Part shown: positions 37,384 to 52,259 of the stretch, one piece after another | How the letters are laid out: each line of letters starts with the position of its first letter | How positions within the stretch are numbered: position 1 is the first letter of the stretch | Source of the DNA: Candidatus Latescibacterota bacterium | GTDB lineage: Bacteria; Latescibacterota; UBA2968 | Reading direction: 5' to 3' | DNA length: 63,020 nt | NCBI GenBank assembly: GCA_022823725.1 | Contig: JAJEHL010000051.1 | Coordinates: forward strand, 1 to 63,020 | The notes under the pieces: generated by a model | The model's database searches: none | Seen by the model: only the letters and a program-made list of their open reading frames with translations | What the model was told of the DNA's origin: nothing | Made by a program: the position numbers and the translations under genes

Positions 37384-39453
37384 TTACATCTGCAGGTCAT
37401 CCAGAAACTCCGACGCAGGTGTAACCCCCGTAATCAATAAGTGGTCCCGAGCGCGTGTGCATGCGACATAAAGCAAATGTCTCTCTGTATCGTACACCTC
37501 TTCGAGATCCGCGCTATCCGCGACTGTCTCAATCCGATCCTGTAGCGGAATAACCTCATCGTCACACGCCATAACTGCGACAGCGCGAAACTCCAATCCC
37601 TTCGCCAGATGCATCGTACTTATCGATACGCAGTCCTTACCCTTCCCATCGCTTTCGTCCAAAACCTGAAAAGAGAAACCAGCATCGCCCACCGCCTCCC
37701 GCGCCCGGTTTAGTTCCCCTGCCGAACGCACAAATATTCCCATCTCACGATCATCCACGCCTTTGTCTCGGCACTCCTGCAACCACGTTCCAACAGCCTT
37801 ACTTTCTTCTTCCTCAGTCTCAAAGAATTCTATTGCCGGAGGCTCACCATTAAATGCCGAGACCGTACCCCTGCGATCCTCAACATTGCCATCCACATCG
37901 GCGACTTCGGGACCCAGCAAACGATCTGCTTGTACCCGGATTTGATGAGACGTTCGGTAGTTGATCTTGAGCGTCCGAGACCTTCCGCGAATATCGACGC
38001 CCAGCGACTTCCATGAAAACGGCGTTTGGAAAATCCTCTGCCCCAAATCACCCGCAAAAAAGAGACTATTGGGCCGTTGGTCGCCCAATGCAGCGAGAAA
38101 ACGCAGTTGGGCAACGCTAATGTCTTGCGCCTCATCTACAATAGCGAAGTCAAACGGTGGATGCCGACGATCTTTGAGCTTCTCAGCAAGCAAGCCGAAC
38201 ATACCAGCCCGGGTCACCAGTCCCTGGTCTTGAAGTTGGTCCTTCACCTTCTCAAAAATAGACCACAGCACCGAACGCTGCGCCACCGGCAGGCGCGTCT
38301 TGCGTCCAAGCCGCCTGATATCGCGATAGGCTTCCCAGCTATTCAACTGCCAAGCATCAACGACACTCTCCCATTCGCTCAACAAAAAACGAAGGCTGAA
38401 TTGATGCTCTTCTACCTCACCTGATGCTTTTGCCAGAAACTCCTGAACAATCTCCTGGGTTGCGATCTTTGGCGCACCAAACTGCGCGCGATAAAGCCGC
38501 TCGCCAACCGCATCAATAGCACTGATTTCCACACGTTCTGCAAGCCGGGGTTCGTTTTGAATTAACCGCCTGAGTTTGATACGTAGAGCATTAGCCAGTG
38601 CATCGGAGAATGTGGTGAGCAGCACCATCGCATCCGGGTTATTGCGCACGAGAAACGCGGCTCGATGAATAGCCACAACGGTCTTTCCCGTACCTGCCGT
38701 CCCGGACACGCGAAATGGGCCATTGTAGTCTCTCTCTACAACTTCTCGCTGCGCCGGATGAAGAAAGACTGCCCACTTTTCCCAAGGATAGTCGAGCGCG
38801 CGCTCCAGTTCTTCCACATTTGTCATCAACCGGAAACGGCGCTGTGCGTCGGGATGATCAAAAGGATCAGTAGTGGTAACTGGTTGCGCTATCTGTGGCG
38901 TTCCACCAACGGCTAACTCAAGTAACGCCTCCCCTGCCTCGCCCGGCAGATGCCCAGCCAATTCGAGCAAGCCATCTTCATCGGCGTTACGCACATCATC
39001 CAGCCAATCAGGCGGCACACCATAACTCAGCAGATCGCTCTCTGAGACATCAGGAAGCAAAGGCTGTTTGTACTGTACTTTTTCCTCAGCTATCACATAT
39101 TGGGGCACGGCGATTTCTTGAACAATCTCGCGCACCTCAACCAATTGTGCTGCACCGGTCCTGGGGTGGGTTTCCAGCTTGCGCCGCTCAGCCCATTGAT
39201 AGGCATTGTCGTGGTGATCTACATAGCACAACAACAGACTATTCCGGGTTCGATGCACAATTATTCGGACATCACGGCTAACGCGAACAGACCAGAAATT
39301 TGGATCTTTAACTCTATCCAACTTGTGGAATTGCACTCCCGGCTGAGCTGGATTTAATTGCAAATCAAAGGCCGTGGTTTTCACAGCCTTCTGCTCATTA
39401 CCGGTCAGCCTGGCAAGGCTATCGGTAAAAGTATGGGCGATGCGGAAATTCAT
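37384..39453 (-). CDS. RelE-like domain fused to UvrD/Rep-type helicase
   Basis: A 689-residue protein. Residues 1-90 resemble RelE/ParE-type toxins (F-T-D-S-L-A-R-L, then W-S-V-R-V-S-R-D-V-R-I-I-V-H, then L-L-C-Y-V-D-H-H-D-N-A-Y-Q-W-A). After a linker, residues 240-685 are a superfamily 1A helicase: Walker A G-T-A-G-T-G-K-T-V, V-D-E-A-Q-D-I, L-Q-R-I-F motif region, and the C-terminal S-T-M-H-L-A-K-G-L-E-F and V-A-C-T-R-A-R-D. UvrD-like helicases fused to RelE-like domains are repeatedly seen in defence regions; the RelE part may be an RNase or only a fold. It is the last gene of the island. The ribosome site is weak. Confidence 0.8.
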   Translation of the reverse strand: MNFRIAHTFTDSLARLTGNEQKAVKTTAFDLQLNPAQPGVQFHKLDRVKDPNFWSVRVSRDVRIIVHRTRNSLLLCYVDHHDNAYQWAERRKLETHPRTGAAQLVEVREIVQEIAVPQYVIAEEKVQYKQPLLPDVSESDLLSYGVPPDWLDDVRNADEDGLLELAGHLPGEAGEALLELAVGGTPQIAQPVTTTDPFDHPDAQRRFRLMTNVEELERALDYPWEKWAVFLHPAQREVVERDYNGPFRVSGTAGTGKTVVAIHRAAFLVRNNPDAMVLLTTFSDALANALRIKLRRLIQNEPRLAERVEISAIDAVGERLYRAQFGAPKIATQEIVQEFLAKASGEVEEHQFSLRFLLSEWESVVDAWQLNSWEAYRDIRRLGRKTRLPVAQRSVLWSIFEKVKDQLQDQGLVTRAGMFGLLAEKLKDRRHPPFDFAIVDEAQDISVAQLRFLAALGDQRPNSLFFAGDLGQRIFQTPFSWKSLGVDIRGRSRTLKINYRTSHQIRVQADRLLGPEVADVDGNVEDRRGTVSAFNGEPPAIEFFETEEEESKAVGTWLQECRDKGVDDREMGIFVRSAGELNRAREAVGDAGFSFQVLDESDGKGKDCVSISTMHLAKGLEFRAVAVMACDDEVIPLQDRIETVADSADLEEVYDTERHLLYVACTRARDHLLITGVTPASEFLDDLQM

Positions 39454-39556
39454 TACTTGATATATTTTGTCAGGCGTCCTGTGCGCTGATTTCTAAAAAA
39501 AACGGACTATTATATAGGGCTACTTAATCAAAATGTCCCTTAGTTATCCAGCACTA

Positions 39557-40258
39557 TCAATGGGACATCGCAACTGGTCGCGTAGCTAATTTTTCGACAT
39601 TGGAGTCGAAGTTTATCATTTGTTGACGTTCATAAGATTTCCACGATTTATAACAACGCAACGAAGTTTTAGAGATAATAGGTGCGTTCTCTGTAGCCTT
39701 GAGTTTCTCGTGCAAGTCCGACATTGTTTGATGGATTTCCTTGCTATCATAGCCACCACGAGTTGGTATCATCCAAGAGTCCAAGAACCCTCGCTCAATT
39801 AGATCCGGCCCCCTGTAATTGTTATCTGACCAGTACTTTTTTTCCCTCTTATTGTTTGGTAATATGCGTCCATTCTGAAAATCTGAGGACCATTTAAGAA
39901 AATCATCACACATAGATTGAAACAGCTTTTCTGAGACAAGAAAAAGATCCAGATCGGATTCTGGGCCAAACGGTTTTCCAAAATTTTCATTTTTTAATGA
40001 CGAACCCAGTCGTGCACTTCCTGTTAAACTAATCTCTTTAGCCTCCACATCAAGTTTTTCGCTAAGCCACGAACGCAGCGACTCATAAACTGCCGGACAC
40101 TTTTGAAATGCAAATGGTATTCCTTCTGAAAGCCATTGGCGTGCTATCGCAAATCGGTCCACATCCCAACCTTCGCACAAAACCCTTAGTATATGCTCTG
40201 CGGTCGGATAACGATCAGTCATTGCTGTTAAAGTTGAAGAGGATTCAAAAGGTTTCAC
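39557..40258 (-). CDS. Nucleotidyltransferase-fold protein
   Basis: A 233-residue protein with a Pol-beta-type nucleotidyltransferase signature: L-T-G-S-A-R-L-G-S-S (about 78-87), then E-S-D-L-D-L-F-L-V (about 100-108) giving the D-x-D metal pair. The C-terminal part is helical and charged. Possible roles are a CD-NTase-like signal synthase, an antitoxin-like nucleotidyltransferase, or tRNA/protein NMP transfer; nothing decides among them. The GTG start at 40258 has GGAGG 6 bases upstream and overlaps the GT51-like gene by 14 bp, so the two are translationally coupled. Confidence 0.65.
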   Translation of the reverse strand: MKPFESSSTLTAMTDRYPTAEHILRVLCEGWDVDRFAIARQWLSEGIPFAFQKCPAVYESLRSWLSEKLDVEAKEISLTGSARLGSSLKNENFGKPFGPESDLDLFLVSEKLFQSMCDDFLKWSSDFQNGRILPNNKREKKYWSDNNYRGPDLIERGFLDSWMIPTRGGYDSKEIHQTMSDLHEKLKATENAPIISKTSLRCYKSWKSYERQQMINFDSNVEKLATRPVAMSH

Positions 40259-40850
40259 TGCACACCTCCGTAATCGAGCTGGGCTGTCGTTCTACTCGGT
40301 TATATCTCTCTATTAGATAGACGCATCTTTGTTCTATTTTGCGGAGTCGTTTCAGCGAAACGATTTTTGGCTGTGGATACTTCAGGCAAGCTACCAGTTG
40401 AGCAGCACTGTACAAATCGTGTGCGGCTGGATCAATTCTCAGCCGTTCGCATGCTTGAAGAAAACTATTCATTCTCCATCCGTAATACGCTACCCACAAA
40501 TAAAGTCTTGGCAGATCTTCTCGTGGAATGTATTGAGTTAGTCGAACAGCCAGGGCTATTTCTCGGGTCTTTCTCAGGATGGTTTTATCGTATTTTCTCG
40601 TCAGAGTACGGACAAGTTGCATCGCAATAGTCGAGCCACCTTCTCTGCGGCCGCAGACAAAAGTTCTCCAGGTAGCACGACAAAGAGCTAACGGATCGAA
40701 GCCTGGATGGTAATGAAAACGGTGATCTTCACCAAGAATGAGTAACGAGCACATTTGCACGTTTGGATGAACTTCGTACTGACTGTCGTATTCGCGCTTG
40801 ACCTCATCTATTGTCCTCTTTAGTTCTCTCCAATCTTCATTCCTACCCAT
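40245..40850 (-). CDS. Soluble GT51 peptidoglycan transglycosylase-like protein
   Basis: A 201-residue protein matching the glycosyltransferase 51 domain of penicillin-binding proteins and MtgA. Motif 1 is E-D-H-R-F-H-Y-H-P-G-F-D (catalytic Glu, about 56-67), motif 2 G-G-S-T-I-A-M-Q-L (about 91-99), motif 3 R-K-T-R-E-I-A-L-A (second Glu). Motif 4 (usually I-L-E-x-Y-L-N) is degenerate: D-L-P-R-L-Y-L-W-V-A-Y-Y-G. It lacks the N-terminal membrane anchor that GT51 enzymes normally need to reach lipid II, and has no transpeptidase domain. It lies 17 bp after the AAA ATPase and overlaps the nucleotidyltransferase. AAAGGAG precedes the ATG. A role in lipid II chemistry during defence is inference. 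Confidence 0.7.
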   Translation of the reverse strand: MGRNEDWRELKRTIDEVKREYDSQYEVHPNVQMCSLLILGEDHRFHYHPGFDPLALCRATWRTFVCGRREGGSTIAMQLVRTLTRKYDKTILRKTREIALAVRLTQYIPREDLPRLYLWVAYYGWRMNSFLQACERLRIDPAAHDLYSAAQLVACLKYPQPKIVSLKRLRKIEQRCVYLIERYNRVERQPSSITEVCSETF

Positions 40851-40867
40851 TAACCATACTCCTTTTG

Positions 40868-41857
40868 TTATTCGCTTTTATCGTCCAGCCTCTCGGCGAT
40901 GCTTTTGCGTTCGGTGAGCATTGCCTTGATGTCCGCTATACGAACCCAATCTCGATCATGGATCAGCGCATCTTTCAAGGCTTCGTTCGCAGCGCGGGTA
41001 ACTTCAGCGTAGCTCAATCCCATTGCCAGATCGGCCAAATTCTCCCACTTGATCCTCTTGAAGACATTTCCAGCGAGGCGAGTTTTCAAGAGCTTCGCAA
41101 TCTGTGATTCATCGGGCAGGTCGTAGTGCAGAATATAGTCGAATCGGCGGAAGAGTGCATGGTCAAATATTCCGGGATGATTCGTTGCCGCCACGACGAG
41201 GCTATGAGAGCGATCCTGCTCAATCATCTGCAAAAAGCTGTTCAACACGCGACGTATTTCACCCACATCATTGGTGAGTCCGCGCTGCGAACCAATAGCG
41301 TCGAACTCGTCAAAAAAATAAATACCCCGGGTTCGGCTGGTGGCATCGAATATCTGCCGCAACTTGGCCGCAGTTTCCCCCATGTACTTGGTGATAAGGC
41401 CATCGAGACGGACTTGAAAAAGAGGAAGACCGAGTTCCCCAGCCAGGACGGACGCGGTTAGCGTCTTGCCCGTACCAGGGGGGCCTGTTAGCAACAACTT
41501 ACGCCTGGGTGAAAGGCCATATTCCACAATCCGCCCAGCATGACGTTGCTCACGAATGACGCGCTTTATCTGCTGGGCGAGAACATCACTCAGAATCATA
41601 TCACCCAATCGAGCCTTCGGGTAAGAGGCTTCCAGTAGGTTCGCCAACTCACCAGAAGGACGGCCAATCGGCACCAGCGAACTCACGCCTCGGCGACCTT
41701 TAGCTTCGTCAATCATGGTCCGCATTTCTTTAGCGAGTTTGCCGTGACCCAGTTTTGCTTCGTGGGCGGCAACCTGCATAGCGACCGAGAAAAAGCGGTC
41801 GTCGTCGCCTTCCAGGTGCGACTTCAGCAATGCTTTGAGTTGCTCTGCGTTAGCCAT
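40868..41857 (-). CDS. AAA ATPase (IetA-like)
   Basis: A 329-residue ATPase. An N-terminal helical region (L-K-A-L-L-K-S-H-L-E-G-D-D-D-R-F) is followed by a classical AAA core: Walker A G-P-P-G-T-G-K-T-L, pore-like K-Y-M-G-E-T, Walker B F-F-D-E-F-D-A-I-G, sensor A-T-N-H-P, arginine finger F-R-R-F-D-Y. This N-terminal region plus AAA core is the type found next to subtilisin-like proteases in the IetAS anti-phage pair, but no protease is present here; a GT51-like and a nucleotidyltransferase gene follow instead. ATG 41857 is chosen for GGGAGA just upstream; the longer frame (41881) overlaps the repeated mod end. Confidence 0.78.
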   Translation of the reverse strand: MANAEQLKALLKSHLEGDDDRFFSVAMQVAAHEAKLGHGKLAKEMRTMIDEAKGRRGVSSLVPIGRPSGELANLLEASYPKARLGDMILSDVLAQQIKRVIREQRHAGRIVEYGLSPRRKLLLTGPPGTGKTLTASVLAGELGLPLFQVRLDGLITKYMGETAAKLRQIFDATSRTRGIYFFDEFDAIGSQRGLTNDVGEIRRVLNSFLQMIEQDRSHSLVVAATNHPGIFDHALFRRFDYILHYDLPDESQIAKLLKTRLAGNVFKRIKWENLADLAMGLSYAEVTRAANEALKDALIHDRDWVRIADIKAMLTERKSIAERLDDKSE

Positions 41858-41887
41858 GATAGATCTCCCATCTAAGGGCAAGCTGCT

Positions 41888-41937
41888 TCACACCCGAAAC
41901 ACCTTCATCACCTCATCCCCCAGATGATTGACCACTT
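41888..41937 (-). repeat. Duplicated 3' end of mod (direct repeat copy B)
   Basis: Thirty bases (41888-41917) are identical to the last thirty of mod (44293-44322), and about 15 of the next 20 also match. In the mod frame the copy encodes K-V-V-N-H-L-G-D-E-V-M-K-V-F-R-V and a stop; mod itself ends K-V-I-N-H-L-G-D-E-V-M-K-V-F-R-V. The stop of ariB lies within the copy in another frame. The two copies bracket ariA-ariB, 2405 bp apart. Confidence 0.85.
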
Positions 41938-42809
41938 TTAGGCGGTGCGGGCAAAGATCTGAATATGTCATACCCTATATTCCGTTTAGACCAGAATCTC
42001 GCATCTGCATACAATTGCGTACGGTAGAAATCTTCGCTGTCGTACGCAAGACGGAGTGCAGTGCCCAGTGCTTGAAGGCTTGCAGCTTGATGTGACTTGC
42101 TGCCTAAAACTTTTCTCAAGGCAATGCCAAAAATCGCAATGAAGTCGTGCCCACAGCAAATTTGATAGGGATCGACATTCATGTCTTCTACAAGTTCCAA
42201 CAATCTATCCCTAATTTCTCTCGCGTCTAAGCCTTGGTTGCCGGTCAACGCAAGAACATTATTTAGCATTCTGTCTCGATCTATTTCCAACGAATCGCGG
42301 TCAATAAAGCGATCAAACCGAAGTCCTTCAAAGCGTAGGCGAAGATCATCTGTCACAGACAAGTAGCGGAGATGCCCTATAATTAAGGCCCTCTGCATCA
42401 GAGCATCGCGTATTCTACTCTCTCGATTTGGAAACTCACGAATTTTTCTTGCAGAACCCAACTCATACAAAACCGCATCAAATGCTTTGGTTCTAAGAAT
42501 CATCATTTCGACATCATGGTCATCTGTGACAATCACATTCCGTGAATTTGGTAGCGAACCATCAATATGTCCAAAGTCAGCATCTACGATTCCCATGAAA
42601 CCCTGTATGCCATTATACGCCTCAAGAATCTCAACAGCGTCAAGGAGGTTTTCCTTACCCCAAGTAGCTATAATAGACATATCGGGATTCTTAACAAATC
42701 GGCGAAAAAATTTTACGTCATTATCTCCTTCGAGAAGGAGAATAGGCCCCTCGTCTCGGTCGCGTGTAAGAAGAATTTCATTAGCTATATCGTGGCTTGT
42801 TTGCTCCAT
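41913..42809 (-). CDS. ariB: DUF4435 TOPRIM-like nuclease, AriB of a PARIS-like system
   Basis: A 298-residue protein of the DUF4435 type with a TOPRIM-like core: catalytic Glu in I-L-L-L-E-G-D-N-D-V-K-F-F (about 21-33), D-x-D in G-I-V-D-A-D-F-G-H (about 77-85), and T-D-D-H-D-V-E-M-M-I-L, a hallmark of DUF4435. In PARIS, AriB is released by its ATPase partner on sensing anti-restriction proteins and cleaves tRNA; that function is family knowledge, not shown here. The ATG at 42809 is one base after the ariA stop (TAATATG). Its last ten codons lie inside the repeated mod end, so its C-terminus was created by the insertion junction. Confidence 0.72.
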   Translation of the reverse strand: MEQTSHDIANEILLTRDRDEGPILLLEGDNDVKFFRRFVKNPDMSIIATWGKENLLDAVEILEAYNGIQGFMGIVDADFGHIDGSLPNSRNVIVTDDHDVEMMILRTKAFDAVLYELGSARKIREFPNRESRIRDALMQRALIIGHLRYLSVTDDLRLRFEGLRFDRFIDRDSLEIDRDRMLNNVLALTGNQGLDAREIRDRLLELVEDMNVDPYQICCGHDFIAIFGIALRKVLGSKSHQAASLQALGTALRLAYDSEDFYRTQLYADARFWSKRNIGYDIFRSLPAPPKSGQSSGG

Positions 42810-42810
42810 A

Positions 42811-44175
42811 TTATTTGCTTTTACCTCCACCTGCCAGTTCAACCATGAGATCTCGTCGATTGTGAATAATAGATGGAGAATGGGTAGCCACAAGAAAATC
42901 AATATCTGCCAACTGTGCTATTTTAGCAATATCCTCGAGAAATTTTCGCTGCCATGTGACATGAAGAGATAGCTCAGGTTCATCGATAAAAATCATGGAT
43001 CCTGGCTTTGCCTTAAACAAAAGCTCGTATGTCAGAACAATCTCATGTTGCTCTCCAGAGGACAATGCCTTTGGTGGTACAATAGACCCATCGTGATCCG
43101 ATTCAAAAATGAATCCCTTATTTTTGTCTACTGCAAACTTCTTATATGAGAAGCGCGAGTTGACGATATCTTTGAACAATTCTACGCGGCGGAGAAGTGG
43201 ATCAAAAACTTGTAGTTTCTTTTTTACGTCATTGAGGTAGGCCCATAAAACCTTTCGTTCATGCTCTTTCAAACTTTCAGAGGAGAGAGGTAATGGGGGT
43301 TTGGCAACAAGAAGACTGGCCTTCATTAATCGATCTCTATATTTTGACTGAGCAGTATATTCTTTTCTGATGTGATTTTCTGTCGCTATTTTCGGCAATT
43401 CTGAGTCCAACAAAAGTCGTTGGGGGAAAGAGCTATCTAAAGATGCGCCAAGCTCACCGGATTTCCTTTGGTAGCTCTCTATTCTGGAGACCATATCCTC
43501 CGAGTATTGCTCTACCGTCATCCGCTGCACAGGGACTTCTCCTTCTTTATATCGAAACGTACGTTCTTCGCGTGCGTCTTCATGCCCTGTGAATAGTCTC
43601 TGAGTTTCAACAACTACAATATTGATTTGTTTTAACAGGCTTTCTATTTGCTCTGGAACCGAGATGATAGATTCACGGATATCAGGGGGTAGAAAATGCT
43701 CGTGATGGAAAGAGAAATCATTGAAAGATAGTAATTCACCCGTTATAACATCGCGCCACTCAGAAAGGCCAACACGTTCTATACCTTCCATATCGTCAAT
43801 CTGGCGTTCTAAGAGACTGGAGGGCAATCTTCCAGGTCTCTTTTGTCCCCTTAGCGACCAAACCGTATGCTCAATCCGTTCTTTCCCAAAACGGTAGATC
43901 AATTCCAGCTTCGCAAAATCCTTTGCTCCTTTTTCCTTAGTAGGAACAACTGTAAGGCTACCTTTAGGCTTGAAACGCACTACAATGCGGTCAAAGGGAG
44001 TATCAAGCAATGAGTGAAACCGTCCTTCAAAAAGGTCAGAGATAAGACGGAGAACCGTTGTCTTACCGACACCATTCGGCCCATGGATGATGGTAATACG
44101 GTCATCCGTCTTCAGGGGTATCCTGTGATCAAAATACCCGAATAAGGATCGAATCTCTATTTCTTTTATTTTCAT
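42811..44175 (-). CDS. ariA: OLD-like AAA ATPase, AriA of a PARIS-like system
   Basis: A 454-residue ABC/SMC-type ATPase: Walker A H-G-P-N-G-V-G-K-T-T (about 31-40), signature-like A-L-S-S-G-E-Q-H, Walker B M-I-F-I-D-E-P-E-L-S-L-H, and the A-T-H-S-P loop. V-V-V-E-T-Q-R-L in the middle is characteristic of AAA_15/AAA_21 ATPases paired with DUF4435. AriA forms the sensing scaffold in PARIS. The start at 44175 is chosen for GGAG 7 bases upstream. TTGACA (minus strand, 44232-44227) lies 50 bp before it but lacks a good -10. Together with ariB it forms a unit bracketed by two copies of the mod 3' end. Confidence 0.75.
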   Translation of the reverse strand: MKIKEIEIRSLFGYFDHRIPLKTDDRITIIHGPNGVGKTTVLRLISDLFEGRFHSLLDTPFDRIVVRFKPKGSLTVVPTKEKGAKDFAKLELIYRFGKERIEHTVWSLRGQKRPGRLPSSLLERQIDDMEGIERVGLSEWRDVITGELLSFNDFSFHHEHFLPPDIRESIISVPEQIESLLKQINIVVVETQRLFTGHEDAREERTFRYKEGEVPVQRMTVEQYSEDMVSRIESYQRKSGELGASLDSSFPQRLLLDSELPKIATENHIRKEYTAQSKYRDRLMKASLLVAKPPLPLSSESLKEHERKVLWAYLNDVKKKLQVFDPLLRRVELFKDIVNSRFSYKKFAVDKNKGFIFESDHDGSIVPPKALSSGEQHEIVLTYELLFKAKPGSMIFIDEPELSLHVTWQRKFLEDIAKIAQLADIDFLVATHSPSIIHNRRDLMVELAGGGKSK

Positions 44176-44292
44176 GTCTATCTCCAAGACTTTAATGATC
44201 AAGAGATTTGGTAAACTTGCAAAAGGTGTCAACAAGAATAGCCTATTTCGCTTGTTTTCGCAACGCATGCACCTTTTTTTCCGCAAAATTTC

Positions 44293-44342
44293 TCACACCC
44301 GAAACACCTTCATCACCTCATCGCCAAGATGATTTATCACCT
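44293..44342 (-). repeat. 3' end of mod (direct repeat copy A)
   Basis: This is the intact end of mod. The outer 30 bases are identical to 41888-41917. Copy B lies beyond ariB, so the pair brackets the ariAB unit. Confidence 0.85.
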
Positions 44343-47109
44343 TCACTGCAATACGGCCGGATTTTGGTTTGTCGAAAGGCCGAGATGTATCGCTTTTGAG
44401 CGTTGCCCAAGCCTCCTGATTGATTTCGGATTTGAGAGTGGTCTTGAGAGATTTGTACGGATCATTTGCACCGAGAAAATAGGCGTGACGGGCAAAGAAA
44501 CTCTCCTCGTTGTAATCGGTATCGACGAACCAGCAAGCAATATCACCGATATCGTCGCTACGGATCTCGCCAGTGTTGGGATGGAACACATCAACACCAT
44601 TGATCTTAACCTTGATTTGATCGTCATCCACATCAAGAATATCAATATCGGGTTCGCCAAAGATTACGAAAAGATTGCCTTTGCCAGTATTCTTCAAGTC
44701 ATCGGCCATGTGGAGATCGGCATTCATCCGCGCTTTGAGTACTGGAATGCGACCGAGCTTGTTAAACTCTGAGGCGTGGGCTTCGTAGTTAAAGGCACAG
44801 GCGATCAGAACATCAAAGTCGGCATCCGCGGCCTCGCGTGCGGCTTGCACGAGATCGGGACGTGCAACCGTGCCAAATTCCGGACCAACAAAAATGCCAG
44901 CGCGCTTTTGTGCTCCGGAATCCTCATCCCCCTCAAAGTAAGCTCCTTCAGCACAAACGAGATCACCGGGCCAGGGTCTGATCCCAGAGAACGAAATCCG
45001 ATCCTCTTTCTGCGCCTGCTGAACGCCAGAGGTCTTGAGGTGTTCCAAAATCATGGCAGCAAAGTCCTGATTGGAACTGCTATCGAACTTTTCCCCATAT
45101 CCGAGCTTGCTTTCGGCGACATTGTCGATGAGTTCATCGTTCTCATCAACAGCCAGCAAGCGATGTGGTGATAGGCTATCTACCGTAAACGGCCCCGCAA
45201 CGCGCACTTTATTTCGATCTTCGTAAGGCTTGTCGTAGAGATATTCATAGTCAGCCTTCGCCGCGATAGATGTGTCAATCTCCTTTTGCCGCGCGATCCG
45301 TTGCTCCCACCAGTCAGCGTGTAGCTTCTTGACCTTATCGGTCCAATCCTCGTCGGCCTCGCGCGGAATCTCCCACTCATCCCAGGCTGTGCCAAGCACG
45401 CTGTTCAATTTTTCACGCAACGGTTCCAACTTCTCTTGAAAGTTTTCCCAGATCACATCAATCTCAGCATTGTTAGCAATAGCCCTGAGCGTAATGTGCG
45501 GCACGCGCTCGTACACAAATCCTTGGCGAATGTCGCCATAGGTAGGCACTTCCGAGGGTGCCTTGCGCTCAATATCCGCTTCTTTCTTCTGACCCTGACG
45601 ACTGTCGGAGAGCAGATAGTAGGGATAGCGCGCCCCCATGATACGAGCACGAGCCAGTGCGAGAGCAACTCGGGAAGTGTCGGTGGTAATCCAGCGACGG
45701 CCCCATTGCTCGGCGACGTACGCAGTCGTACCGGAGCCGCACGTGGGATCAAGAACAAGGTCGCCGGGGTCGGTAGCCATAAGAATGCAGCGCTTAATCA
45801 CCTCAATAGATGTTTCTATTATATATGTTTTGTTCCTTGCGCCGATTGTATCAGACCAAGTAGAGGTCAGTTTTGCGTAATTTGCTCCTTCTTCATAAAC
45901 CACTTTTCGCAAATACTTACCTTCAACTTCGATATGATTTGCACGAATTAATCGTTGCATATTGGATAAGGAAGTCGGATAACATTGCCCAACTGGAGGT
46001 AGCCAATTTGAGCCTCTAAACTGAATCGGGAAAACGGCTTTAGCATCATAAGATGCAGGCCAAAGAGAGACCAACCTAAAGCGTCTCCCTTTATCTGGAA
46101 TAGCGAAACCGGAGTCAATTTCTCTTTTTGAAATCTTGTGTCGGTCCAACATCTCACCTTCATAATTGTTCCAGTGAAAATCACCGCTGTAGTCTTTGTA
46201 TTCAAAAAGTTGACGATACTTGACCAAGGAAGCATCTCTCGCATGCCAAATGATAAAGTCATACATTTCTTCAATATACTTAGCTCCAAGCGGCATCGTT
46301 TTCTTTCTAAACCTAATTGTTGATATATGATTCTTTTCCCCAAATACTTCATCCATCAGCATCCGCACCCGATGCACATTCTCATCTCCAATCTGCACGA
46401 AAATCGAACCGCTCTCCGTTAGCAAATCCCGCGCTACCGTCAGCCGATCCCGCAGATACGTCAGATACGAATGAATCCCATCCCGCCATGTATCCCGAAA
46501 CGCCTTCACTTGCTCAGGCTCGCGAGTGATGTGATCGGCCTTTCCGTCCCGCACGTTACGACTGGTGGTTGACCACTGGAAATTGGAATTGAACCTAATC
46601 CCATAAGGCGGATCAATGTAGATACACTGCACCTTGCCGCGCAGTCCTTCGCGCTCGGCAAGCGATGCCATCACCTGCAAGCTATCGCCGAGGACCATGC
46701 GGTTCGACCAATTGGCGTCGTGCTGATAGAACTCAGTCTTAGCGTCCTCAGAGGGCAGACCATTGAAATCGGCGAAAAGATCAGTCTGGAAGCCTGACTC
46801 ACTCGCAGCGTCTTCCTCGCTCTGGCTTATCAAATCATCGATCAGCACTTTGGGGTGAACCTTCTCTTGAATGTACAGAGGCGGCGCCTGTACCACCAAA
46901 TCTGACCAATCTTGCTCATCCTTGCCACGCCAGACGAGTTGCGGGTCAAGGTCTCGGTTGCGGCGTTTGTACGCAACCTGGATGGGACTTCGCTCATCGT
47001 CCGCCATCACTGCTTGATACTCGGCTGTGGGAATATTTTTGCGCGATGCGTCCTTGTGTCTAATAGTGTCGATAGTTTTGGGGGATCTGGCGCGCGTCCT
47101 TCGAGCCAT
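44293..47109 (-). CDS. mod: Type III restriction-modification DNA methyltransferase Mod
   Basis: A 938-residue N6-adenine/N4-cytosine methyltransferase. Motif IV is C-I-Y-I-D-P-P-Y-G (about 159-167), and the AdoMet motif I follows later in V-L-D-P-T-C-G-S-G-T-T-A-Y (about 455-467): the order D-P-P-Y before F-x-G-x-G-like makes it beta class, as in type III Mod. It is longer than typical Mod (about 650), with about 350 extra C-terminal residues containing the target-recognition and unknown regions. GGAGG lies 11 bases before the ATG. Its partner Res is upstream, with a small membrane-peptide gene between. The last 16 codons recur at 41888-41937. Confidence 0.88.
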   Translation of the reverse strand: MARRTRARSPKTIDTIRHKDASRKNIPTAEYQAVMADDERSPIQVAYKRRNRDLDPQLVWRGKDEQDWSDLVVQAPPLYIQEKVHPKVLIDDLISQSEEDAASESGFQTDLFADFNGLPSEDAKTEFYQHDANWSNRMVLGDSLQVMASLAEREGLRGKVQCIYIDPPYGIRFNSNFQWSTTSRNVRDGKADHITREPEQVKAFRDTWRDGIHSYLTYLRDRLTVARDLLTESGSIFVQIGDENVHRVRMLMDEVFGEKNHISTIRFRKKTMPLGAKYIEEMYDFIIWHARDASLVKYRQLFEYKDYSGDFHWNNYEGEMLDRHKISKREIDSGFAIPDKGRRFRLVSLWPASYDAKAVFPIQFRGSNWLPPVGQCYPTSLSNMQRLIRANHIEVEGKYLRKVVYEEGANYAKLTSTWSDTIGARNKTYIIETSIEVIKRCILMATDPGDLVLDPTCGSGTTAYVAEQWGRRWITTDTSRVALALARARIMGARYPYYLLSDSRQGQKKEADIERKAPSEVPTYGDIRQGFVYERVPHITLRAIANNAEIDVIWENFQEKLEPLREKLNSVLGTAWDEWEIPREADEDWTDKVKKLHADWWEQRIARQKEIDTSIAAKADYEYLYDKPYEDRNKVRVAGPFTVDSLSPHRLLAVDENDELIDNVAESKLGYGEKFDSSSNQDFAAMILEHLKTSGVQQAQKEDRISFSGIRPWPGDLVCAEGAYFEGDEDSGAQKRAGIFVGPEFGTVARPDLVQAAREAADADFDVLIACAFNYEAHASEFNKLGRIPVLKARMNADLHMADDLKNTGKGNLFVIFGEPDIDILDVDDDQIKVKINGVDVFHPNTGEIRSDDIGDIACWFVDTDYNEESFFARHAYFLGANDPYKSLKTTLKSEINQEAWATLKSDTSRPFDKPKSGRIAVKVINHLGDEVMKVFRV

Positions 47110-50522: not shown

Positions 50523-52259
50523 CTATTCATCTGTCCTCTGTCTTTCGTACAAAGGTTCGTATTCCAACAGCACCGATTTTCCGATCATCTCAACAAACCG
50601 CACGATCCACTCAGAACCGTTCACATCCGTGAGCCGCAAATCCTGATTCAATTTGAAGTAAACGGGTTGCGGCTTGCCTTCGTCAATAGCGATATTTGTC
50701 GCGTAAAGATACATACGGTCCTGATCATCGAGGACCGGATTCAGCCGCCCGGTCAAATCGGGCAAATGACCTGTTCCTTCCGTGAAAATCTCTGATCCCC
50801 CTATCGGCTGTGTCTCAAGTTGCACATGGAGGGATTCTGGCGGCTGCCAATCCTGCACGGCATGTGCTCTGTACCCCGGTGCCGCGCAGAAAACCGTGAT
50901 GGGGAGTTCCGAGTGAAACCCGAAACCGACCCGCCCAAACGTATCGGTCTCCCCCGCCATCCATGTTTTGTTGGGATACAGCGCAACAACCTTTGCACCT
51001 GCGAGTGGCCGCCCCGCGGCAGATACCGACACTTCACCTTCGATACCCGTTACCGGCGGACGAGCAGAGGGTATTGTCAGCCGCAGTTCTGCGCCATCAA
51101 GCAGTTCGTAATTCGGATCACGACCTGTCAGATCTCGCGTCTGCTCATAGATAATCGGAACACCTTCGCCGCGTTGCTCCAGAAAGTACTGCCGGTCACC
51201 AGCACCGACGATATCCCCTACTGCAAGCATACGGAAGACGGACGCGAGCGTTTCGTTGCGGGTGGCTTGTCGATTTCGCATGGCTTCGATAGGCAGCGTG
51301 TTGGGCAAGGCACCCGGCGAGTATAACTCAAGTCGATCATCGAAAATAAAGAGCCGTATCTTCGCATTCTCTATTGAGTAGTCGCGGTGAATCACGGCGT
51401 TGACGATGGCCTCGAACACTGCCCGCGGACTGAATTGCGGGACCTCCACCCGTCCAGGGTCTTTGCGCGCCGCCACCCGCGTGTTGAGCCTGGCGAAATT
51501 GATGGCGTCGCGGACCTGCTGGTCCAATGGACCAGTGATTGACACCGCATCGTGCTGGCTCGCACGACCGAGCACAGTGCCGCGATAGCGAACGGCTTCG
51601 ATCACCGCACCGCTTATGTGCTCATCTGGGCGTGCCGTGCAAAACAGCACCCCGGCGACTGTTGCACGCATCACGCCATTGTCATCCTCCCGCACCAATC
51701 CACGCTTTGCGAGTTGGGTGTCAATAGGCTCAGTGGCGCGCGAGCTCAAGAAACGATCCACAAGCGTCTCATCAAGCGTATTGGGTCCAGTTCCAGCGAC
51801 AATGCCCTCATCAGGCCCCAACAGCCCGGAACGTCCCCGTTGTTGAAACAAGCGCTGCAATGCGGGCGGCGACAATTCGCGCCTGGCACTGCCCTGACGA
51901 GAAAGATAACCCCCAGGACTTTTGTGTACCAGCGCACTCTGCTCAACTTCGACGACCAACGCGAACGAACCATCCGGCAAAGCCAGCCGTTGGGTGACAA
52001 ACGCCAGCGAGGGACGGATGCTGTCTGAGCAAATTTCGGTGACAAAGGCTTCCAACGCGTCCATCTGCTGCCGATTCATCGCTCGCACCTCACCGGCGTC
52101 CGACACACTGAAGATCAATGTGCCACCAATGGTATTGCCAAAAGCGGCCAACTCGTCGGCGATGGAGTCCCGATGAGGCGCACTGACGCGGTTGCCGGTA
52201 AATACGGCTTCTTTGAACTCAACGCGGCTATCACTGCACCCAACAGACATCCCCCTCAC
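50523..52259 (-). CDS. AlbA_2/Schlafen-like ATP-binding protein with HATPase_c_4 and Ig-like tail
   Basis: A 578-residue protein. Residues about 10-125 are an AlbA_2 (Schlafen-like) domain (V-E-F-K-E-A, then A-F-G-N-T-I-G-G-T-L-I-F-S-V). Residues about 255-400 hold HATPase_c_4 (F-E-A-I-V-N-A-V-I-H-R-D-Y, then D-D-R-L-E-L-Y-S-P-G-A-L-P). About 410-480 looks like a carboxypeptidase-regulatory/Ig-like fold (A-G-R-P-L-A-G-A-K-V-V-A-L-Y). AlbA_2-HATPase proteins are often called transcriptional regulators, and some act in defence. The GTG start at 52259 overlaps the isomerase stop (GTGA); ATG 52250 is the alternative. It opens the defence island. Confidence 0.78.
   Translation of the reverse strand: MRGMSVGCSDSRVEFKEAVFTGNRVSAPHRDSIADELAAFGNTIGGTLIFSVSDAGEVRAMNRQQMDALEAFVTEICSDSIRPSLAFVTQRLALPDGSFALVVEVEQSALVHKSPGGYLSRQGSARRELSPPALQRLFQQRGRSGLLGPDEGIVAGTGPNTLDETLVDRFLSSRATEPIDTQLAKRGLVREDDNGVMRATVAGVLFCTARPDEHISGAVIEAVRYRGTVLGRASQHDAVSITGPLDQQVRDAINFARLNTRVAARKDPGRVEVPQFSPRAVFEAIVNAVIHRDYSIENAKIRLFIFDDRLELYSPGALPNTLPIEAMRNRQATRNETLASVFRMLAVGDIVGAGDRQYFLEQRGEGVPIIYEQTRDLTGRDPNYELLDGAELRLTIPSARPPVTGIEGEVSVSAAGRPLAGAKVVALYPNKTWMAGETDTFGRVGFGFHSELPITVFCAAPGYRAHAVQDWQPPESLHVQLETQPIGGSEIFTEGTGHLPDLTGRLNPVLDDQDRMYLYATNIAIDEGKPQPVYFKLNQDLRLTDVNGSEWIVRFVEMIGKSVLLEYEPLYERQRTDE

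Follow-up and report, generated by a model that had tools for sequence, protein, structure and literature searches.

This locus raises the question of why a protein with a peptidoglycan glycosyltransferase (GT51) domain is encoded between an IetA-like AAA ATPase and a nucleotidyltransferase (NTase), and which of these genes belong together. An earlier note on the stretch of DNA analyzed here (63,020 nucleotides; the window) had proposed that the three form one defense module. All three open reading frames (ORFs) lie on the minus strand, in the following setting:

37384-39453, minus strand: UvrD-like helicase, whose start is the downstream edge of a cargo slot
39557-40258, minus strand: NTase, 233 aa, proposed partner or regulator (motifs GSARLGxS...SDLD)
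40245-40258, minus strand: 14-bp overlap of the GT51 stop and the NTase start
40245-40850, minus strand: GT51 protein, 201 aa, candidate effector (Pfam Transgly, 3.9e-24)
40868-41857, minus strand: IetA-like AAA ATPase, ATG at 41857 and stop at 40868, with a longer ORF start at 41881 (PADLOC IetA, 6.6e-75)
41888-41938, minus strand: copy of the mod 3' end, 51 nt, 90% identical, at the seam between two cargo units
41913-42902, minus strand: DUF4435/AriB-like protein, upstream cargo (Pfam DUF4435, 1.9e-12; PADLOC AriB, 2.7e-21)
42811-44286, minus strand: AAA_21/AAA_15 ATPase (AriA/PtuA-like), upstream cargo (Pfam, PADLOC)
44293-47109, minus strand: type III Mod methyltransferase, which bounds the slot upstream with its 3' end (PADLOC MTase_III, 1358.6 bits)

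The 17 nt between the IetA and GT51 ORFs and the 14-bp overlap of the GT51 and NTase ORFs, both given in the earlier note, agree with these coordinates.

The association of GT51 with the NTase turned out to be far better supported than the earlier note could show. Genome, plasmid, and viral searches yielded 15 intact GT51-NTase loci, the window included, with the same gene order, the same strand, and either an overlap or a short gap between the genes; the 14-bp overlap is exact in 7 of the 15 (the window, L035, L037, L038, L039, L072, and L074). The pairs are distributed over four bacterial phyla and two prophage-type contigs, and beyond the window they come from Gemmatimonadota (L037), named Acidobacteriota (L038 and L039), the class of L039's genome (L072 to L076), Pseudomonadota (L040, L041, and L042), a plasmid of Aliarcobacter (Campylobacterota; L035), and viral contigs of prophage type (L043 and L044). 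When even samples of genomes were screened with the NTase profile, a GT51-linked NTase was found in 7 of 349 genomes from the class of L039's genome, 1 of 385 from that of L041's, and 1 of 369 from that of L042's, counts that include the center genome and the case with a truncated GT51. That case is a sixteenth locus (L071, 1217-2208), where a truncated GT51 precedes an intact NTase. The phage and Escherichia coli collections searched contained no close copy. We conclude that GT51-NTase is a genuine family and a mobile two-gene cassette, apparently undescribed. A 32-residue GT51 remnant was also observed in a congener (L067, 9668-9763).

Profile and structure comparisons confirm the GT51 identity that had been proposed for the second gene. 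The Pfam Transgly match covers profile positions 10 to 175 of 178 (85.5 bits; cut-off, 27), and the AlphaFold model (pLDDT 81.7), built from an alignment of 11 sequences, supports the lysozyme-like GT51 fold. In Foldseek searches, this model matched the Aquifex aeolicus peptidoglycan glycosyltransferase (3nb6; E 3.1e-6, TM 0.65) and the Staphylococcus aureus MGT with lipid II analogues (3vms, E 4.4e-6; 3vmt), and all 16 PDB chains at E ≤ 0.001 were peptidoglycan glycosyltransferases. The alignments for the structure models left out the plasmid sequence. Both catalytic Glu motifs described earlier are present (E41 in GEDHRF and E97 in RKxxE), as is the G-G-S-T motif, in the form GGSTI. Across the 15 members, E41, H48, G50, R58, S73, T74, Q78, R81, K94, and R175 are invariant, and E97 is kept in 14, missing solely in L076, the most divergent. 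The GT51 partner in L076 (2151-2849) has Gln at this position and a fourth motif that is more PBP-like; perhaps it represents a separate recruitment.

The fourth motif of the window protein had been called degenerate, a description that we do not uphold: it is instead a lineage-specific signature, YLxxAYYGWRMN, with W125 in 12 of 15 members and in none of 31 class A PBP-type domains. The family signatures W125, M127, Y158, and P161 are rare or absent in PBPs. In a tree whose 31 PBP GT51 domains all come from one phylum and in which some branches are long, the NTase-linked proteins and the membrane-anchored prophage proteins of L049 and L051 stand apart from the PBP-type domains with support of 100/100; taxa are intermixed within the GT51 tree. 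The possibility that GT51 is a decayed PBP fragment was ruled out by this separate clade and the conserved active site. With MtgA/MGT and the GT51 domains of class A PBPs, the window protein shares the fold, E41 and E97, GGST, Q78, R81, and K94. However, it lacks a transmembrane anchor (the N-terminal anchor and periplasmic domain of the MtgA type were not found) and a transpeptidase, whereas the NTase-linked family has its own clade, its YYGWRMN and KYPxP signatures, and an NTase always alongside.

That the window GT51 has no membrane anchor, as claimed earlier, is borne out by its hydropathy, for which the top 19-residue value is 0.59 and no segment exceeds 0.6. Most NTase-linked members likewise have no membrane segment. 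Some have hydrophobic N-termini (hydropathy 1.93 in L073 and 1.61 in L076), so a cytosolic location is uncertain for these members; the L073 protein has one candidate membrane segment, with more positive charge in its C-terminal flank. Separately, prophage loci L049 (4346-5540), L050 (identical coordinates), and L051 (4333-5483) encode a one-helix membrane protein followed by a membrane-anchored GT51, and these pairs adjoin an integrase or precede holin and endolysin genes. The one-helix protein has a conserved soluble part; searches of Pfam, PHROGs, and PADLOC returned no match to this protein, and the PDB nothing notable.

The third gene fits the proposed nucleotidyltransferase in its GS...SDLD motifs (GSARLGSS and SDLD), its confident model (pLDDT 87.8), and weak fold matches to nucleotidyltransferases. 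In Pfam there was no confident match (NTP_transf_2, E 0.11, below the cut-off). When the model was compared by Foldseek with the PDB and viral libraries, no match was significant, the best PDB value being E 0.77, with AadA and TUT4 near the top and TUT7, mtPAP, and cGAS lower (all weak), and the NTase profile retrieved only unrelated proteins from the PDB sequences. Since the PDB fold matches are weak, the assignment relies mainly on the motifs. SDLD is present in the NTases of all 15 pairs, and G80, S87, D102, and D104 are invariant across 16 sequences. An acidic residue at position 160 or 162, past the next strand, is found in nearly all NTases, L044 having no clear one; in the window protein, D160 is probably the third acid.

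Distant NTases directly precede a DUF262 (GmrSD_N) gene in eight of eight loci (L046, L053, L054, L055, L068, L069, L077, and L078). The profiles of the GT51-linked and DUF262-linked NTases align in hhalign with 98.2% probability, and G80, S81, G85, S87, S101, D102, and D104 are common to both. Both are two-gene units with homologous NTases, but the DUF262 partner lies downstream of the NTase, whereas the GT51 partner lies upstream. Since all eight distant loci have a DUF262 partner, the NTase can be regarded as a partner module for different enzymes, and a single NTase family that pairs with two unrelated enzymes is the picture that a common regulator of exchangeable effectors would give. No description of the DUF262-NTase pair was found, and it is apparently another undescribed two-gene unit.

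The position of IetA is explained differently. In the window genus, the interval between the type III mod and uvrD-like genes is a variable cargo slot, which in congeners holds IetAS, Dsr2 (5e-187), an FRG/TPR protein, or a trypsin-like protease, or is empty:

G033: mod, FRG/TPR protein, mod 3' end copy, IetA, IetS, uvrD
G036: mod, trypsin-like protease, uvrD
G031: mod, uvrD, empty between
G038: mod, RmrA-like gene, mod 3' end, Dsr2, GT51 remnant
L038 (named Acidobacteriota): mod, GT51, NTase, uvrD

In both L037 and L038, the pair directly follows mod, without IetA. The window IetA gene and its counterpart in the G033 IetAS unit share 86% identity, and IetA with IetS is present in congener locus L062. 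Past the IetA stop, the window and G033 agree as far as GGAGTA and part from there on, with GT51-NTase in the stead of the IetS subtilase. As the earlier note had remarked, IetA is without its protease: IetS is absent from the locus, and no homologue was found in the window genome with the congener IetS as query, in a search run without a positive control. The proposed three-gene module does not stand, because IetA occurs in none of the 14 other pairs and the same slot in G033 holds IetA with IetS; IetA as a fixed third gene is ruled out, and the trio was found nowhere else among those pairs. To judge from these sequence comparisons, IetA is an orphan neighbor, the remains of an IetAS unit, and not part of the conserved one. 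In the window (37384-47109), L062, L063, L064, L067, L037, and L038, the last 50 to 100 nt of mod are copied ahead of stacked units; the window copy at 41888-41938 stands between the AriA/AriB-like pair and IetA-GT51-NTase. These copies suggest that units are exchanged through recombination at the 3' end of mod. The simplest history would be that cargo units were stacked and exchanged there, with GT51-NTase replacing IetS.

The defense-type setting proposed earlier was borne out by the slot, which is shared with IetAS and Dsr2, and by defense-gene neighbors elsewhere. Genes near other pairs (L035, L037, L039, and L040) include HEC-01AB, MzaD/AIPR/Z1, Mrr, bSEFIR, and DrmC-like genes, and the L043 and L044 pairs occupy cargo positions, at the end of a P2-like prophage and between recombinase genes. 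The pair shares with anti-phage systems its location in defense islands or at prophage cargo sites. No recognized defense gene was seen within 16 kb of the L041 and L042 pairs or in the view of about 3.6 kb around the L072 to L076 pairs. From this context (the IetAS/Dsr2 slot, the HEC-01, MZA-like, Mrr, and SEFIR neighbors, and the prophage cargo positions), we infer a defense role for GT51-NTase.

Assembly of lipid II takes place on the cytosolic leaflet, from which it is flipped outward. Our preferred reading, which we hold tentatively and place somewhat short of probable, is that the pair is a mobile defense or toxin-antitoxin cassette in which GT51 is a cytosolic lipid II effector controlled by the NTase. 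The putative effector would be an active enzyme retained in the cytosol, and there it would meet its putative target, lipid II, at the inner leaflet. Once free, it would polymerize or sequester lipid II before flipping, and the loss of lipid II would halt wall building and then growth, so that phage infection would be aborted. Translation of the NTase, a putative off-switch, would be coupled to that of GT51 through the gene overlap, and the NTase would control GT51, most simply by transferring a nucleotide to it in the way that MntA modifies HepT, a block that infection would relieve. Unchecked use of lipid II would do harm, in keeping with a pair under control. In its most specific form, that of a new type of immune or toxin-antitoxin system whose cytosolic GT51 depletes or locks lipid II at the inner leaflet once the NTase brake is lifted, with abortive infection as the outcome, the proposal is more doubtful.

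NTase antitoxins that nucleotidylate a toxin have a precedent (PMC7641770, PMC11586414), and the modification of HepT by MntA shows that toxin silencing by an NTase can work in this way (PMC7641770). As in HEPN-MNT systems (type VII, HepT-MntA), an enzyme is paired here with a small GS...DxD nucleotidyltransferase. However, there is no HEPN protein, the partner being GT51; the NTase is not recognized by Pfam as an MNT; and toxin modification would apply here by analogy. The gene order is also reversed, since the antitoxin gene usually comes first in HEPN-MNT pairs (PMC3710099), whereas the NTase gene is second in GT51-NTase pairs, which counts against our preferred reading.

Other readings assign the roles differently. 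In CBASS-like signaling, the NTase would sense infection and make a nucleotide messenger that switches GT51 on, destroying the lipid II supply. The two-gene effector-NTase order, the active-site residues kept in both enzymes, and the second enzyme type, DUF262, beside the same NTase family (8/8 loci), as for a common switch with exchangeable effectors, agree with it, and as in CBASS the NTase adjoins an enzyme potentially lethal to the cell. We nevertheless consider it unlikely: membership of the NTase in CBASS/CD-NTases was rejected for want of any family match in Pfam or PADLOC, its 233 aa are below the typical CD-NTase length, and the GT51 protein has no ligand-binding domain. Moreover, no match to HORMA, SAVED, or a known Cap effector was found, and TRIP13-like AAA is only a weak secondary match of the window IetA. 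It is less likely again that the NTase is the toxin, for instance an NMP-transferase acting on tRNA or protein, with the GT51-like protein as antitoxin or as sensor of lipid II or wall damage. The NTase gene does occupy the second, usual toxin place, and the NTase is constant while its partner varies (GT51 or DUF262), so that it may be a common toxin with exchangeable partners instead of a common regulator; but 14 of the 15 GT51 proteins keep a complete catalytic site, which goes beyond the need of a mere binding antitoxin.

An accessory cell wall function with no immune role, such as altered or emergency peptidoglycan synthesis or lysogenic conversion, appears slightly more remote. In fold and residues, GT51 matches wall synthases, and related membrane-anchored GT51 genes occur in prophages, in L051 beside a lysis cassette, but most NTase-linked members have no membrane anchor, and the NTase partner, the sparse distribution, and the recurrent defense-type slots and islands argue otherwise. 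Least likely of all, we think, is a working IetA-GT51-NTase hybrid in which GT51, standing in for the IetS protease, is driven or unleashed by IetA. The 17-nt spacing with the ribosome-binding stretch GGAGTA right after the IetA stop resembles the IetA-IetS junction, and IetA is intact, with a pairwise dN/dS of 0.19, a constraint that leads us to suppose that the orphan may do something in the window; against the hybrid stand the lack of IetA in all 14 other pairs and the L037 and L038 pairs placed directly after mod.

We found no described defense or toxin system that uses GT51, whether in the PADLOC, Pfam, NCBIfam, and PHROGs collections or in the literature searched, where nothing relevant turned up on GT51 or monofunctional glycosyltransferases in defense. 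If true, the preferred reading of GT51 as an NTase-controlled effector would introduce an effector chemistry that is new, the consumption of lipid II from the cytosolic side, together with a new partner module, the NTase, for at least two enzyme types. The carriers outside metagenomes, Chitinibacter tainanensis DSM 15459 and an Aliarcobacter cryaerophilus plasmid, make direct tests possible. Elsewhere in the window, the AAA ATPase and DUF4435 protein at 41913-44286 resemble AriA/AriB (PARIS) but are divergent, and a Schlafen AlbA_2/HATPase_c_4 protein, kept in congeners, lies past a Res-like gene at 50523-52259.
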